Origin: Paraburkholderia sp. Tr-20389
GTDB taxonomy: Bacteria; Pseudomonadota; Gammaproteobacteria; Burkholderiales; Burkholderiaceae
Assembly (NCBI RefSeq): GCF_017104565.1
Contig: NZ_JAAGPD010000014.1
Span: 124,001 to 188,000 of the forward strand
Direction: 5' to 3'
DNA: 64,000 nucleotides
Both the position numbers and the translations under genes were made by a program. A model generated the notes under the pieces. The model was not told the origin of the DNA and did not search any database. It worked only from the letters and a program-made list of their open reading frames with translations. This document shows, one piece after another, positions 38,586-43,178 of this stretch. How positions within the stretch are numbered: the stretch's first letter is position 1; every line of letters starts with the position of its first letter.

Positions 38586-40508
38586 TCAGATTTCCACGCG
38601 CGCCCCCACCTCGATCACGCGATTGGCAGGCAGCTTGAAATACGCCGCCACGTTGCCGACGTTGTGCAGCATCACCGCAAAGAGCCGCTCGCGCCACATC
38701 GCCATGCCCGAGCCAGGTGTCGGCACGACGGTCGCGCGGCTCAGGAAGTACGACGCCTCGTCCGGTTCGACATCGAGACCGAGCGACTTCGCCGCAGCGA
38801 GCGCTTTCGGCAGATCGACTTCGTCCTTGAAACCATAGCGGATCGTGAGCTGATAACCGCCCTCGCACACAGTCTTCAGACTGACGCGGTCCTGTTCCGC
38901 GACCCAAGGTATCTCGTCGCTGATTACCGTGAGAAACACCACGCGTTTGTGCAGCACATGGTTGTGGATCAGGTTGTTGACGAGCGCGTGCGGCACGCTG
39001 TCCGGGCTCGGCGTGAGAAAGATCGCCGTGCCGCCGACGCGCACGGGTTCCCGCGCGACCAGCTTCTCCAGATATGTCTTGAGCGGCATCGTGCCCGCCC
39101 GCACGCGCGCCTCGGCCAGCATGATTTCCCAGCCTCGGCCCCACGTCGCCATGATCGTGAACACCACGAAGCCGATCATCAGCGGGAACCAGCCGCCTTC
39201 GACGATCTTCAGCAGGTTCGCCGAGAAGAACGTCGCGTCGATCACGAAGAAGAACGCAGTTGCGAACACACACAGCGCCCAGTTGTAGTGCCATGCATAG
39301 CGCACGACGAAGAAGGTCAGCAGCGTGGTGATCAGCATCGTGCCCGTCACCGCGATGCCATATGCGGACCCGAGCGCCGTCGACGATCCGAAGCCGAGCA
39401 CGGCCGCGACCACTGCAGCGAGCAGCGTCCAGTTGATGCCCGGCACGTAGATCTGGCCGATCTCTTTCTCCGACGTGTAGACGACGTTCATGCGCGGCAG
39501 GAAGCCGAGCTGCATCGCCTGCTTCGTCATCGAGTAAGTGCCGGAAATCACGGCTTGCGATGCGATCACCGTCGCGACCGTCGCGAGCACGATCATCGGA
39601 TACAGCGCCCATTGCGGAAAGAGCAGGTAGAACGGGTTCTTCAGCGCGGCGGGATTCGAAATCAGCAGCGCGCCCTGACCGAGGTAGTTCAGCGCGAGCG
39701 CGGGGAAGACGAGACCGAACCACGTGAGACGGATCGGCCGCGCGCCGAAGTGCCCCATGTCGGCATAGAGCGCCTCCGCGCCCGTCAACGACAGCACGAC
39801 GGCGCCCAGCGCGACGAACGCGAGCCACTCGTGACGCAGACAGAACGCGAGGCCGGCGAGCGGATCGAGCGCGGCGAGAATCGCGGGCGCTGCGACCACG
39901 TTGGTCACGCCCGTCACGGCCAGCACGATGAACCACAACACCATCACCGGCCCGAACACGGCACCGATGCCAGACGTGCCGTGCTTCTGCATCACGAACA
40001 ACGTGACGAGCGCGACGAGCGTGACGGGTATCACGCAGCTCTTGAGAAACGGGGCGGCGACTTCCAGTCCTTCGACGGCGCTCAGCACGGAAATGGCGGG
40101 TGTGATGATACTGTCGCCGTAAAAGAGCGACGCGCCCATCACGCCGACGATCAGCAGCGCATGCCGCAGCCGCGGACGGTCCGCCACCGACGACGCCGCC
40201 AGCGCGAGCAGCGCCATGATCCCGCCTTCGCCGTGATTGTTCGCGCGCAGAATCAGCGCCACATACTTGAGCGACACGACGATGGTGAGCGACCAGAAGA
40301 TCAGCGACACGATGCCGATCACGTTCAACGGCGTGAGCGGCAGTCCGCTCGACGTCGCGAAGACAGTCTGCAGCGTGTACAGCGGACTCGTGCCGATATC
40401 GCCATAGACGACACCCAACGCGGCAAGCGCCAGCGAACGGAGCGCCGGCTTGTGCGGCGCAGGCGCGCCAATCGGATCAGCGCCGGGATGCGCAGCTGAC
40501 AGGCTCAT
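38586..40508 (-). CDS. kup: KUP-family potassium uptake protein
   Basis: A 640-residue inner-membrane K+/H+ symporter. The first helix carries the hallmark LALAALGVVYGDIGTSPLYTLQ. Further signatures are NNHGEGGIMALLALA, FYGDSIITPAISVLSAVEGLE, FFVIDATFFSANLLKIVEGGWFPL and a cytosolic C-terminal domain of about 170 residues (AGTMPLKTYLEKLV onward) ending in PANRVIEVGARVEI. E. coli Kup has 622 residues. Kup supports low-affinity K+ uptake, best under hyperosmotic acid conditions. It is divergent from the Nramp-type gene across a long gap. Confidence 0.96.
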   Translation of the reverse strand: MSLSAAHPGADPIGAPAPHKPALRSLALAALGVVYGDIGTSPLYTLQTVFATSSGLPLTPLNVIGIVSLIFWSLTIVVSLKYVALILRANNHGEGGIMALLALAASSVADRPRLRHALLIVGVMGASLFYGDSIITPAISVLSAVEGLEVAAPFLKSCVIPVTLVALVTLFVMQKHGTSGIGAVFGPVMVLWFIVLAVTGVTNVVAAPAILAALDPLAGLAFCLRHEWLAFVALGAVVLSLTGAEALYADMGHFGARPIRLTWFGLVFPALALNYLGQGALLISNPAALKNPFYLLFPQWALYPMIVLATVATVIASQAVISGTYSMTKQAMQLGFLPRMNVVYTSEKEIGQIYVPGINWTLLAAVVAAVLGFGSSTALGSAYGIAVTGTMLITTLLTFFVVRYAWHYNWALCVFATAFFFVIDATFFSANLLKIVEGGWFPLMIGFVVFTIMATWGRGWEIMLAEARVRAGTMPLKTYLEKLVAREPVRVGGTAIFLTPSPDSVPHALVNNLIHNHVLHKRVVFLTVISDEIPWVAEQDRVSLKTVCEGGYQLTIRYGFKDEVDLPKALAAAKSLGLDVEPDEASYFLSRATVVPTPGSGMAMWRERLFAVMLHNVGNVAAYFKLPANRVIEVGARVEI

Positions 40509-40723
40509 GTCTCCCTCCAGTGATCGCCATGTAATCGTTGGCTATTAGCGGGCGATCTGAAAGCCGGATGAATGGTCGGACGTATCACGGACGCGCGACC
40601 TGTATTGGCGGCTCAATCCAGTATAGAAAGCCCCGCGAGAAAAGCGCAGCGAACGGACGTGAACGTTGCGCGACAGCGGATGTGCGTTGCCCCGCATATT
40701 TCGGTTCTGCTTAAGAAAGTGCA

Positions 40724-40753
40724 TTGACGAGACTTTGCGTAAGAGCATAAAAT
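40724..40753 (+). promoter_or_regulatory. Sigma70-like promoter for the Nramp-related transporter
   Basis: TTGACG (40724-40729) and TAAAAT (40748-40753) with an 18-base spacer, in the most AT-rich part of the kup/transporter gap and pointing at the transporter. Transcription from about 40760 would give a 5' leader of about 775 nt before the transporter start and about 428 nt before the first small open frame. No gene is apparent between 40760 and 41187; a bulged hairpin lies near 40864-40886. Confidence 0.6.
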
Positions 40754-41187
40754 TCTTTTATCTTGAAATTTGAGGGGCGTTGCCTTGGACAGTTGCAGTA
40801 GTACGTTTTCGAACAGTTTCGCCGCCTGAACGGCAAGACGTCCGCGCCTTCCTCATCTAGCCGCCGTCTTGCCAGCAGGCAGACGGTGCGCGTCGCAGTT
40901 TCATCCCTCGTGCATCCTGTTTAGCGCCATCGGTTTGAACACCGTGAGTGCGCAGCGCGTTCGCGCGTGATACGCAGCCGCCATCGCGGCGTCGTTTCGC
41001 GTACCGGCGTGTGCGTGCTCATGCGTGCGACGGCGTTCCGACAGGCGCACGCGCGCTGATGCCCGCGCTGGTTTCATCGCTCACCGCCGCTTGCCGTTGC
41101 GAAAATTCGATACGTCCGTGGCCACGCATTGCACAGACGCGCGCATCGTAATGGGCGATGCGCTTCATCAATCAACCGGGAGCCGCC

Positions 41188-41241
41188 ATGCCTGACAGTG
41201 ACAGTCATCCCTTGAACACCGACATGCCTTTAATGAACTGA
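41188..41241 (+). CDS. Candidate leader peptide uORF1 (17 codons), acidic and proline-containing
   Basis: The peptide reads MPDSDSHPLNTDMPLMN and is preceded by CGGGAG 7 bases before the ATG. Asp and Pro at positions 2-5 resemble the N-terminus of Salmonella MgtL (MEPDPTP...), where acidic residues and prolines destabilise elongating ribosomes when Mg2+ is low. Its stop codon lies directly against the 5' strand of a downstream stem, so a ribosome finishing here would cover that strand. This is too short to be certain from one genome. Confidence 0.5.
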   Translation: MPDSDSHPLNTDMPLMN

Positions 41242-41323
41242 GGCAAGCGAGCCCACGGCTATTCGATCCCATCGATTCTCCGGCGCTTGCCGCCTCGCAC
41301 GCACGAGCCCTCGTGCCGGAGAA
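41242..41323 (+). promoter_or_regulatory. Mutually exclusive stems in the transporter leader (candidate Mg2+ switch)
   Basis: Stem A pairs GGCAAGCG (41242-41249) with CGCTTGCC (41284-41291). Stem B pairs TTCTCCGGC (41276-41284) with GCCGGAGAA (41315-41323). They interleave and share base 41284, so they should not form together. Stem B contains GGAGA, the ribosome-binding site of the small frame at 41329. A terminating ribosome on uORF1 would block stem A and favour stem B (off); early ribosome loss would allow stem A and free the site (on). A smaller GCACGAG/CTCGTGC hairpin (41301-41316) could compete. Pairing is read by eye, without energies. Confidence 0.5.
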
Positions 41324-41328
41324 CCGAT

Positions 41329-41493
41329 ATGTACTTCCTGCTTCTTTCGACCTTGCCTCGAACCCGCGAAGCACGCGCGCACTACGACGCGTTTCTTTCG
41401 CTGAAACACGAGCGACGCCTCGCATCCGCGCCGCTCGCGAACACGCTGCATCGCATCGCCGCCGCCCTGCTCAGAAAGCGCAGCGCTGCGTAA
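41329..41493 (+). CDS. Small protein uORF2, 54 residues, upstream of transporter
   Basis: GGAGA lies 6 bases before the ATG. The peptide has a hydrophobic start (MYFLLLSTLP) and a helical basic remainder (REARAHYDAFLSLKHERRLA, then ANTLHRIAAALLRKRSAA), so it may be an amphipathic or membrane-associated small protein. Its stop lies 41 bases before the transporter start. Its ribosome-binding site is inside a predicted stem, so its translation may gate the transporter. Family unknown. Confidence 0.55.
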   Translation: MYFLLLSTLPRTREARAHYDAFLSLKHERRLASAPLANTLHRIAAALLRKRSAA

Positions 41494-41534
41494 CGGAAAT
41501 CATTCGACCTATATCCGTTCAAGGGAGAATAACA

Positions 41535-43178
41535 ATGGCAACGCCACCACAAGCACTGCCGACGCGCTCCGCCGTTCTCGACGACGCGCATGTCGGCGAC
41601 ATCCGGGGCGCACTCGGCACGATCGCGCATCACGACACGGCACCGCGCAATAGCTGGGGCGCGCGGCTGCGCACCCTGCTGGCGATCGTCGGCCCCGGCC
41701 TCATCGTGATGGTCGGCGACAACGACGCTGGCGCCTTCGGCACCTATACGCAAGCCGGCCAGAACTACAGCACCACGCTGCTGTGGACGCTGCTGCTGCT
41801 CGTGCCCGTGCTGTACGTGAACCAGGAGATGGTGCTGCGTCTTGGCGCCGTGACGGGCGTCGGTCACGCGCGCCTGATCTTCGAACGCTTCGGCAAGTTC
41901 TGGGGCGCGTTCAGCGTGATCGACCTGTTCATCCTCAACGCGTTGACCATCGTCACCGAGTTCATCGGCATTACCTTCGTGCTCGACTTCTTCGGCGTAT
42001 CGAAGGTGGCGGGCGTGTGCATCGCGGCTGCACTGACAATGGCAGCCGTCAGCACCGGCGACTTCAAGCGCTTCGAGCGCTTTGCGATCGTACTGTGTCT
42101 GCTGAGCCTGCTGCTCGTGCCCGTGCTCGTGACGATCCATCCGCCCGTCTCGCAGATGACCCATCATCTCTTCATACCCGCATGGCCCGCGCACGCGAAG
42201 CTGTCGGACGTGATGCTGCTCGTGATCGGCATCGTCGGCACGACGGTCGCGCCGTGGCAGCTGTTCTTCCAGCAGAGCTATGTGATCGACAAGCGGATCA
42301 CGCCGCGCTTCATGAAGTACGAAAAGGCCGACCTGTGGATCGGCATCGTGTTCGTGCTGATCGGCGCAATCGCGATGATCTCGTTCAGCGCGGCGCTGTT
42401 CGGCGGCAAGCCGGAGTTCGGCCAGTTCACCGATTCAGGCGGCGTGATCGCCGGGCTCGAAAAGTATGCGGGCCGCACGCCTGCCGTCCTGTTCGCGATT
42501 GCGCTGATCGACGCATGCATCATCGGCGCGGCGGCCGTGTCGCTGTCGACGGCGTATGCGATCGGCGACGTGTTCAAGATCCGTCACTCGCTGCATCGCG
42601 GTGTCGCCGACGCAAAGGGCTTCTATCTCGTGTACTTCGGGATCGTCGCCGCGGCGGCGGGCCTCGTGCTGATTCCGGGCAGCCCGCTCGGCCTGCTGAC
42701 GGAAGCCGTGCAGACGCTCGCGGGCGTGCTGCTGCCGAGCGCGACCGTGTTCCTGCTTCTGCTGTGCAACGATCGCGCGGTGCTCGGGCCGTGGGTCAAC
42801 TCGAAAGGCCTGAATCTGTTCACGGGTGCCGTCGTGTGGGCGCTGGTGCTGCTATCCGTCGTGCTGACGGCGTCGGTGGTCTATCCCGACATCAGCGGCC
42901 ACGCGATCATTGACATTCTGGCGGGCGGCACGCTGCTCGCCGTGGTCGCACTCGTGGCCGCGAGCGCACTGCGCCGTCTGCGCGGCACGCCCGCGACGGA
43001 AAGCGTGCCCGCGATCAGCAAGGCAGAACGCACGACGTGGCGCACGCCGCCGCTCGACGAGTTGCCGAGGCCCGTGATGACGCTGTCGCGGCGCATCTGG
43101 ATGGGTGCGTTGCGCGGCTATCTGGTAGTGGCCGTCGCGCTGGTGATCGTGAAGGTCGTGCAACTCGCATTGACCTGA
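41535..43178 (+). CDS. Nramp-related divalent metal transporter, probable NRMT (Mg2+) clade
   Basis: A 547-residue inner-membrane protein with about 11-12 helices (WGARLRTLLAIVGPGLIVMVGDNDAGAFGTYTQAG onward). In classical Mn/Fe Nramp transporters helix 1 has DPGN and helix 6 has a metal-binding Met in MPH. Here helix 1 has Asp62-Asn-Asp-Ala-Gly-Ala, and helix 6 reads TTVAPWQ with Ala239 in the Met place. Loss of the soft Met ligand is the reported mark of Nramp-related magnesium transporters. GGGAGA precedes the ATG. The C-terminus has a soluble stretch (PATESVPAISKAERTTWRTPP) before a last helix. The long leader upstream suggests post-transcriptional control. Confidence 0.88.
   Translation: MATPPQALPTRSAVLDDAHVGDIRGALGTIAHHDTAPRNSWGARLRTLLAIVGPGLIVMVGDNDAGAFGTYTQAGQNYSTTLLWTLLLLVPVLYVNQEMVLRLGAVTGVGHARLIFERFGKFWGAFSVIDLFILNALTIVTEFIGITFVLDFFGVSKVAGVCIAAALTMAAVSTGDFKRFERFAIVLCLLSLLLVPVLVTIHPPVSQMTHHLFIPAWPAHAKLSDVMLLVIGIVGTTVAPWQLFFQQSYVIDKRITPRFMKYEKADLWIGIVFVLIGAIAMISFSAALFGGKPEFGQFTDSGGVIAGLEKYAGRTPAVLFAIALIDACIIGAAAVSLSTAYAIGDVFKIRHSLHRGVADAKGFYLVYFGIVAAAAGLVLIPGSPLGLLTEAVQTLAGVLLPSATVFLLLLCNDRAVLGPWVNSKGLNLFTGAVVWALVLLSVVLTASVVYPDISGHAIIDILAGGTLLAVVALVAASALRRLRGTPATESVPAISKAERTTWRTPPLDELPRPVMTLSRRIWMGALRGYLVVAVALVIVKVVQLALT

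Follow-up and report, generated by a model that had tools for sequence, protein, structure and literature searches.

The locus and its question

What does a long leader with several tiny reading frames do ahead of a transporter gene in Paraburkholderia sp. Tr-20389? The window analyzed here is the 64,000-nucleotide stretch at positions 124,001 to 188,000 of contig NZ_JAAGPD010000014.1. It contains the following transporter gene and candidate promoter.

40724..40753, + strand: candidate sigma-70 promoter, TTGACG-18-TAAAAT (consensus scan, 10/12 positions)
41535..43178, + strand: NRMT transporter gene, 547 aa (Pfam Nramp, 2.5e-75)

The nearest solved chain to the encoded protein was 7qia (1.2e-46), and the next chain scored 3.2e-16. 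We take 7qia to be EleNRMT. The TTVAPW of the window protein aligns with TTIAPW of 7qia, with Ala where the canonical Nramp chain shows the metal-binding Met. By homology, the transporter is an NRAMP-related magnesium transporter (NRMT). An earlier note, made from the sequence alone, had called it a Mg-type transporter. That assignment is now stronger than the note could know, with the same leader family also preceding MgtC and a TIGR01524 ATPase.

The candidate promoter block is mostly kept across six close relatives. If it is used, the leader would be about 775 nt long (about 40760-41534). Three tiny frames (uORF0, uORF1, and uORF2) and stems predicted to refold lie in this leader, 5' of the transporter, whose ATG at 41535 follows uORF2 after a gap of 41 nt. 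On rereading the sequence, uORF1, both stems, uORF2, and the gap were all where the note had placed them. The part of its leader from uORF1 to the transporter stands. Its 5' reach was too short, and it missed uORF0 and a conserved element, E1 (40774-40899).

We read the leader as an mgtL/mgtQ-type Mg2+ starvation switch to which E1 adds a further stage, at a probability of roughly 0.68.

uORF1 is a kept reading frame

41178..41182, + strand: Shine-Dalgarno sequence of uORF1, GGGAG (sequence)
41188..41241, + strand: uORF1, MPDSDSHPLNTDMPLMN, an MgtL/MgtQ-like acidic/proline leader frame (sequence and relatives)

An MPDSDS-like uORF1, acidic and proline-rich as is enteric MgtL, was retrieved from 148/199 loci with a loose pattern. 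This pattern itself demanded D3, an acid at position 5, and P8, so the invariance of these residues counts as no evidence. The corresponding DNA pattern was present in 96/145 genomes, and a reversed control pattern was present in none. GGAG lies 5 to 6 nt 5' of the start in 140/143 loci. Pro2, which is outside the search pattern, has all four codons in use (116/141 loci, omitting six plasmid duplicates and the odd-peptide loci L192 and L194). The distance from the uORF1 start to the stop at stem A ranges from 57 to 87 nt and is divisible by 3 in 75 of 80 loci. The window frame has D-x-D at positions 3 and 5, the two near-start acidic residues of the mgtL/mgtQ type. Judged by the in-frame distances and the four Pro2 codons, uORF1 is a kept reading frame. 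The earlier note had staked its reading on conservation of the peptide, which is borne out by the locus and genome counts.

uORF2 is under selection

41329..41493, + strand: uORF2, 54 codons, consensus MNFGLLLSQLPHVQESRxHYDAMLSL family (frame, homologues, and dN/dS)

The uORF2 family is present in 100/145 same-genus genomes. Its median pairwise dN/dS of 0.46 indicates purifying selection. A spurious frame is ruled out by the conserved family and this ratio. Domain searches with uORF2 returned no known domain. A class-wide search of 369 genomes retrieved the own genome and six matches at E values of 0.002 to 0.009.

Stems A, B, and C

41242-41249 with 41284-41291, + strand: stem A (homologous stem kept in 80 relatives; 14-sequence window subgroup)
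41240-41244 with 41292-41296, + strand: alternative outer register of stem A (unforced best fold)
41276-41284 with 41315-41323, + strand: stem B, which hides the uORF2 Shine-Dalgarno sequence (relatives' alignment)
41301-41307 with 41310-41316 (41301..41316), + strand: stem C hairpin (homologous hairpin in relatives; window subgroup)

The 3' strand of stem B covers the GGAG of uORF2, as the note had proposed. Stem C overlaps this strand and competes with it. In 80 diverged relatives, stems A and C were paired in 92.9% of cells, versus 34 to 43% for slid partners, and stem B was paired in 80.7%, versus 34 to 50%. Double-sided changes were found in 61 cells for stems A and C (shuffle mean, 19.6) and in 35 cells for stem B (shuffle mean, 19.3). 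The alignment held 80/86 members of group M, which had itself been picked by the stem A motif; five long variants and L123 were removed. Both the stem and E1 sets exclude nine plasmid loci and identical sequences. The slid and shuffled controls rule out chance stems, and the covariation check proposed for both stems gave compensatory changes above shuffle. Pairing in 14 close relatives was 90.8% and 94.4%. These 14 contained essentially no covariation, with too little variation among them.

Base 41284 is the only overlap of stems A and B. Of the 14 close relatives, one (the window itself) retains the stem A pair that involves this base. Because the overlap is limited to this base and the topology is otherwise that of a pseudoknot, the claim that the two stems cannot coexist was too strong. 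Their existence and conservation hold.

With stem A forced in the note's register together with stem C, the computed fold was -33.1 kcal/mol; with stem B forced, it was -38.0 kcal/mol. That register of stem A is about 5 kcal/mol less stable than stem B. The unforced best fold, at -38.4 kcal/mol, contains the outer register of stem A (41240-41244/41292-41296) and stem C. The computed probability that the Shine-Dalgarno sequence is unpaired, with the stem A 5' strand free and covered, respectively, was 0.16 and 0.00 in the 14 close relatives and 0.00 and 0.00 after rounding in the window alone. Over 86 main-type loci it was 0.14 and 0.07 and was higher when the strand was free in 69. It was not raised in 9/11 Burkholderia-type loci, where the masking point is arbitrary. 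RNAalifold over the entire span from uORF1 to uORF2 returned no structure, for which we blame the variable uORF1 tail. The computed folding lends only weak support to the predicted opening of the start site once stem A forms.

E1 and uORF0

40774..40899, + strand: E1, a 126-nt conserved element of the leader that has alternative stems (blastn and model R1)
40785..40829, + strand: uORF0, LDSCSSTFSNSFAA, 14 codons from TTG, with its stop TGA within the E1 stems (locus comparison)
40832..40886, + strand: E1 alternative pairing of CGTCTTGCC (40865-40873) with GGCAAGACG (40832-40840) or GGCAGACGG (40878-40886) (alignment)

At the nucleotide level, E1 is conserved more strongly than any other part of the leader. 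It was found by blastn 5' of uORF2 in 188/199 loci and was present in 134/143 same-genus genomes. Model R1 scored 134 bits at the window E1 and 81.6 bits at a second site in the own genome. Rfam contained no match for E1. A class-wide search of 158 genomes retrieved the own genome and one match at an E value of 0.008.

Both pairing states were paired in 89 to 90% of cells, versus 18 to 51% for slid partners, in an alignment of 62/75 diverse E1s; the 13 omitted were mainly orphan or degenerate, which favors conservation. One alignment column changes jointly with both its partners. With so little sequence variation, covariation is otherwise sparse, and the folding energy is ordinary (z, -0.31). 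The uORF0 start pattern is absent in 13/178 loci, and the frame is 14 codons long in 161 of the 165 loci that carry it. Entropy by codon position was ambiguous for uORF0.

E1 also precedes MgtC, with neither an MPDSDS-type uORF1 nor uORF2 found, in this genome and at nine other loci; one such E1-MgtC locus, L293, has a loose acidic match. The E1 search loci inspected were 25/40. E1 may already have been sighted as an unnamed RNA, for example among Bp1_Cand449/846. A figure legend in PMC3521395 places mgtC2 among the genes flanking homologues of these candidate RNAs, and one passage of the Burkholderia small-RNA literature gives an MgtC family gene as the computed target of a small RNA.

Gene partners

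We recovered 193 uORF2 loci (199 minus 6 plasmid duplicates). They are followed by NRMT (131 loci), an ABC transporter (20 loci), MgtC (6 loci), a Mg2+ P-type ATPase (5 loci), or CDF (1 locus). The fetched flank contained no such gene at 29 loci, and one locus ends at a contig edge. One leader-associated ATPase scored 1281.6 bits against the curated Mg2+ model TIGR01524 (cutoff, 610.75), and the leader-associated MgtC matched PF02308 at 8.3e-35. The ABC transporter contains an AAA_assoc_C domain. Among the 145 genomes, 102/115 NRMT hits have a uORF2 or uORF1 pattern within 700 bp upstream, and a further 4 carry MDSDSYP.

The leader is not a general trait of Mg2+ P-type ATPases: 18/26 of these genes, including that of the own genome, had no uORF2 match. 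We opened 16 of these 18 loci. Inspection showed the leader at one (G059); among the other 15, 13 contained no candidate uORF1 and 2 gave loose matches. Within the samples searched, the leader is confined to the Burkholderiaceae. It recurs before several unrelated magnesium uptake gene families and so looks like a magnesium starvation switch.

Proposed mechanism

Mg2+ would presumably be the signal. Ribosomes that finish uORF1 would cover the 5' strand of stem A. Stem B would then form and hide the uORF2 start, and uORF2 and the transporter would be off. At low Mg2+, ribosomes would be destabilized by acidic and proline codons near the start of uORF1 (M-P-D-S-D-S-x-P) and would probably drop off early. 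In this putative order of folding, stem A, with stem C, could then form and the uORF2 start would open. Translation of uORF2 would continue to the transporter if the two are coupled, as we infer. E1 with uORF0 may act as an earlier, similarly built control stage, and E1 may be a signature common to the Mg2+ genes of Burkholderia relatives. Conservation of the frames, the stems, and the gene partners is the directly observed part of this explanation. The mgtL-like reading of the earlier note keeps its frames, its stem covariation, and its Mg2+ gene partners and loses the strict exclusion of stems A and B.

Alternative readings

E1 could instead be the true Mg2+ sensor, as a riboswitch or a uORF0-driven attenuator, with uORF1 and uORF2 tuning or relaying its output. 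Its high conservation, its two conserved alternative pairings, and its occurrence before MgtC where neither uORF1 nor uORF2 was found argue for this. However, uORF1 is also present at most uORF2 loci that have E1, and sparse covariation and ordinary folding energy do not favor a sensor. In at least three loci (L079, L081, and L087), uORF1 and uORF2 are present but a search upstream found no E1, although all three lack a downstream Mg gene. We regard an E1 sensor as possible but somewhat unlikely. It is also unlikely, and a little more so, that uORF2 is a small protein acting in trans or on the transporter, with the stems merely setting its level. Purifying selection and the persistence of uORF2 at the 29 loci without such a gene in the fetched flank fit that proposal. 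Against it, uORF2 has no known domain, and the uORF0 start is lost in six of these 29 loci (L053, L054, L075, L089, L092, and L149), which suggests decay.

The leader might also sense another divalent metal (Mn2+ or Co2+) or general translation stress. CDF is the first gene behind it at one locus, and DmeF Co/Ni efflux genes are neighbors on three plasmids, one of which also has a CDF transporter. MgtC, the TIGR01524 ATPase, and NRMT all indicate Mg2+ instead, and we consider another signal quite improbable. Least probable is that stems A and B together form an H-type pseudoknot, stabilized by Mg2+, that hides the uORF2 start and leaves uORF1 secondary. The two stems abut, share one base in the window, have H-type topology, and are conserved together. 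However, stem C overlaps the 3' strand of stem B. The uORF1 frame persists through indels and has its end in the stem, features for which a sensor made of RNA alone would have no need.

Significance

A broader claim would make E1 an unrecognized class of Mg2+-sensing leader RNA of the Burkholderiaceae. With the stacked uORFs, it would define one posttranscriptional regulon of NRMT, MgtC, and Mg2+ P-type ATPases, and the AAA_assoc_C ABC transporter would be a new class of Mg2+ importer. We hold this tentatively and lean against it. We know of no Mg2+ carriage by the ABC transporter that bears this leader. If our main reading is right, the Mg2+ starvation regulon of Burkholderia relatives runs via a leader RNA that unites an MgtL-like uORF with a conserved structured element and with a further conserved small protein. 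Ribosome-destabilizing Mg2+ leaders would have arisen or spread far from enteric bacteria. The leader would also serve as a sequence marker for predicting Mg2+ genes, and this marker points to an ABC transporter.

Comparison with known systems

We did not find this leader described in the literature searched. Rfam Mg_sensor and M-box gave no gathering-level matches in the window and six relatives, and the region 40600-41560 gave two unrelated Rfam matches at E values of 1 to 1.2. These searches rule out an M-box or any described RNA family. M-box leaders before NrmT genes, as described in PMC4072509, are similar in placing an RNA leader ahead of NRMT. The mycobacterial M-box with uORFs (PMC12810186) is similar as a Mg2+ leader with a conserved small uORF2 as output and anti-Shine-Dalgarno pairing. 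Unlike M-box leaders, the leader here has no M-box, its E1 contains its own frame, and, among the samples searched, it is limited to Burkholderiaceae.

The transporter resembles EleNRMT and CabNRMT, with its best match to 7qia and Ala at the Met position. It differs in its greater length (547 aa), and its Mg2+ transport is predicted.

The MgtL papers (PMC11282234; PMC11552253) and the MgtQ paper (PMC8092293) describe how ribosomes are lost at acidic residues near the start, after which refolding follows. Like the mgtL leader of enteric mgtA (EPDP motif), the leader here contains a short uORF with an acidic and proline start, would refold, and has a predicted Mg2+ transporter downstream. Unlike mgtL, it belongs to another bacterial class, its peptide and RNA are different, and NRMT is mostly downstream. 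The site that would be hidden here is where another conserved uORF starts, and our model invokes no Rho step. In mgtQ, from the Salmonella mgtC-mgtB gap, near-start Asp/Glu codons abort translation and alternative stems free the start of a Mg2+ transporter, as we propose here. mgtQ has 8 codons and lies within an operon, whereas uORF1 lies in a long 5' leader, follows E1, and would open another uORF first.

The leader and its transporter

The leader and the gene behind it contain the following features, in window positions.

40774-40899, leader element E1 (126 nt)
40785..40829, uORF0, a 14-codon frame inside E1
41188-41241, uORF1
41242-41249 with 41284-41291, stem A
41276-41284 with 41315-41323, stem B, which hides the uORF2 SD
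41301-41307 with 41310-41316, stem C, a third stem that competes with stem B
41329-41493, uORF2, a 54-codon frame
41535..43178 (+), the NRMT gene, encoding the transporter P0001

Every feature named by the earlier note was read from the sequence where it had been placed. P0001 is an Nramp protein (PF01566 at 2.5e-75) and falls below the NCBIfam cut-offs for MntH and Nramp. Among solved structures, chain 7qia (EleNRMT) is its nearest relative (1.2e-46; next, 3.2e-16). It has Ala at the position of Met in a canonical chain. PMC8806188 singles out this swap as the most striking way in which the binding site of NRMTs differs. PMC4072509 describes NrmT as a magnesium transporter, preceded by M-box leaders in Clostridia and Deltaproteobacteria. 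The divergent neighbor of the leader (38586-40508) looks by eye like a Kup-type K+ transporter gene. Of the 16 closest loci, most have a Kup-like gene beside the leader.

uORF2 and the genes behind the leader

Close and diverged relatives of uORF2 were found by tblastn in 145 same-genus genomes. With E no higher than 1e-4, a profile of 15 sequences matched 100 of the 145 and, in the family, 130 of 398 genomes that span 9 of 25 genera. Across the class (369 genomes), the own genome alone was convincing, and six others matched at E 0.002-0.009. Named records include Paraburkholderia, Burkholderia, Caballeronia, Trinickia, and Pararobbsia. The median pairwise dN/dS was 0.46 (13,536 of 17,205 pairs). 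The window's uORF2 had no Pfam or NCBIfam match. uORF2 is a family.

There were 199 uORF2 loci, or 193 once 6 duplicate plasmid loci were removed. The first Mg-related gene after uORF2 was NRMT in 131 of the 193, an ABC gene (permease or ATPase) in 20, MgtC in 6, a P-type ATPase in 5, and CDF in 1. No Mg-related gene lay within the fetched flank in 29, and 1 more locus ends at a contig end. One leader-bearing P-type ATPase matched TIGR01524 (magnesium-translocating) with 1281.6 bits (cut-off, 610.75), and two leader-bearing MgtC proteins matched PF02308. The leader-bearing ABC pair contains BPD_transp_1 and ABC_tran with AAA_assoc_C.

Behind one leader (L039:5258-8194) is a 978-aa frame with an NRMT-like start followed by a winged-helix regulator, and L123 is alike; this is a fusion or remnant. 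At L188 and L199, uORF2-like frames precede genes that look by eye like TonB/ExbB/ExbD, with no uORF1 pattern and no E1 match.

The 145 genomes contained 115 NRMT hits, partly fragments, in 95 genomes. Within 700 bp, 86 hits had uORF2, 16 more had the uORF1 pattern, and 13 had neither. Four of those 13 loci were opened and contained MDSDSYPICRL or MDSDSYPIRRL. A uORF2 match was present at just 8 of 26 Mg2+ P-type ATPase genes, which counts against generality of the leader. Another of these genes (in genome G059), when opened, had E1, MPDSEIWPL, and a uORF2-like frame. Of the other 17, 15 were opened, including the own genome's L237; 13 had no candidate peptide, and L242 and L244 had loose uORF1 matches only.

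Several Mg2+ P-type ATPase genes without the leader (L237-L246, L249), among them that of the own genome, have TTGAYNNNNRTCAA-like sites upstream by eye. These resemble FNR/ANR boxes, hinting at oxygen-linked control.

uORF1

An MPDSDS-like frame was found in 148 of 199 loci by a loose pattern search; other lineages have MPDPEP or MNDSDSCP. The pattern itself required acidic residues and proline, so their invariance proves nothing. Pro at position 2, outside the pattern's demands, was present in 116 of 141 loci and used all four proline codons. GGAG lies 5-6 nt 5' of the start in 140 of 143 loci. This codon variety and spacing read as independent signs that uORF1 is translated. Among 86 loci picked by the stem A motif, a start was found in 80. 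In 75 of the 80, the distance from it to the stop inside stem A is divisible by three (range, 57 to 87 nt), and the stop is TAG in all 75.

Searched genome-wide, the uORF1 DNA pattern had matches in 96 of 145 genomes, and its reversed control had none. Twenty of its places were opened (17 without a uORF2 hit and 3 with MSDSDSYP). Sixteen precede NRMT; 15 of these have a second peptide of a different kind (MYIAVLVPTLQQT type), and one has none. Two MSDSDSYP places sit before an ABC permease, and two of the 20 places have none of these genes behind them.

Proposed alternative stems

Stems A and B had been described as mutually exclusive. They do overlap, but only base 41284 is common to both, and 1 of 14 close relatives retains the stem A pair in which this base takes part. 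Stem B is present in the fold of 41250-41345, which leaves out uORF1 (z -2.47), and in that of 41170-41345 (z -1.77). For 41239-41350, the best fold (-38.4 kcal/mol) combines stem C with stem A in an outer register. Forcing stem B gave -38.0 kcal/mol, and the earlier note's stem A register plus stem C gave -33.1 kcal/mol. Near-equal computed energies of the alternative folds make the region nearly bistable on paper, but not in the exact register first given to stem A.

An alignment of 80 of the 86 main-type loci was used for covariation. Stems A and C were paired in 92.9% of cells versus 34-43% with slid partners, and stem B in 80.7% versus 34-50%. Double-changed cells numbered 61 in stems A and C (shuffle mean, 19.6) and 35 in stem B (19.3), with 0 of 500 shuffles as high in either case; kinship among sequences can push such counts above shuffles, and the slid-partner control is safer. 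Shuffles were not clearly beaten for pairs with a double change (8 in A and C, 3 in B; 65 and 166 of 500 as high) or for further pair types (120 and 97 of 500). In the 14 close relatives, pairing is conserved at 90.8% and 94.4%, with no covariation.

With the 5' strand of stem A free, predicted accessibility of the uORF2 SD rose by a small amount in 14 of 14 close relatives and slightly in 69 of 86 main-type loci. It was about 0 in the window itself. Of 11 Burkholderia-type loci, for which the choice of masking point was arbitrary, 9 had no predicted rise.

Element E1

The earlier note's account of the leader lacked E1, a conserved upstream element. E1 came to light when close relatives were aligned upstream, as a block directly after a promoter-like site. 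By blastn, 188 of 199 loci have it ahead of uORF2, with 69-95% identity (window's own copy excluded). Among close relatives it is conserved better than the spacer 3' of it. At L079, L081, L082, and L087, uORF2 is present (three with the uORF1 pattern) and E1 was not found upstream. At G061:C34, the NRMT gene is before the uORFs, not after them, and E1 precedes that gene.

The start pattern of uORF0 (TTG to TGA) is present in 165 loci, and in 161 of these the frame is 14 codons long, with the consensus LD[ST][CS]SSR.SN.F.A. The pattern is absent in 13 of 178 loci. These include six orphan leaders (L053, L054, L075, L089, L092, and L149) that have lost the TTG-GA start and belong to the 29 uORF2 loci without a Mg gene in the fetched flank. 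Codon-position entropies were 0.61, 0.39, and 0.61, so coding is not proven by them. MgtC-type E1s, by eye, keep the uORF0 stop and change length in frame, some with ATG or GTG starts.

A strand within E1 has two possible partners, one upstream and one downstream. Each state is paired in 89-90% of cells versus 18-51% with slid partners, and a single column changes along with both alternative partners. RNAalifold gave just one double-changed pair, and the fold energy is ordinary.

The E1 covariance model, built from the very genomes it was searched against, matched 134 of 143 same-genus genomes and 66 of 170 family genomes (10 of 25 genera). Across the class (158 genomes), it matched the own genome and one other at E 0.008. 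The own genome has two strong matches, the window copy and C51:29178, and ten further matches at E 0.2 or worse. At C51:29178, an MgtC frame opens 599 nt past the E1 start, and neither uORF1 nor uORF2 was found. Two model searches yielded 40 loci, and 25 were inspected; they precede MgtC (10), ABC (7), NRMT (2), MgtA (1), or none of these (5). G031:C85:1651-2262 and G102:C150:313-1070 each contain a pair of oppositely oriented E1 copies, separated by a few hundred bases. E1 may act either as the main sensor or as a second stage placed upstream.

Comparison with known Mg2+ leaders

No description of such a leader was recognized in the literature searched, largely open-access and in excerpts. 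A betaproteobacterial copper uORF is on record (PMC9426467). PMC3521395 places two candidate small RNAs near mgtC2, and these could be earlier sightings of E1.

By analogy, the leader most likely works like MgtL/MgtQ. A ribosome that completes uORF1 would sit on the 5' strand of stem A and leave stem B to hide uORF2. Early ribosome loss from uORF1 would free the uORF2 start. The MPDSDSYP of uORF1 resembles MgtL, a likeness based on the EPDP motif and the proline positions of MgtL, which are given in part in PMC11282234. Early acidic residues are described as dislodging ribosomes, with the leader then refolding, in both MgtL (PMC11282234) and MgtQ (PMC8092293). According to PMC11552253, the mgtL leader has two exclusive folds and depends on Mg2+, with direct RNA sensing unsettled. 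A mycobacterial M-box, a Mg2+ leader, is also described with a conserved small uORF2 as its direct output (PMC12810186). mgtL is Rho-based, unlike the start-site release proposed here. mgtQ releases a hidden start site, as proposed here, and is the closer of the two.
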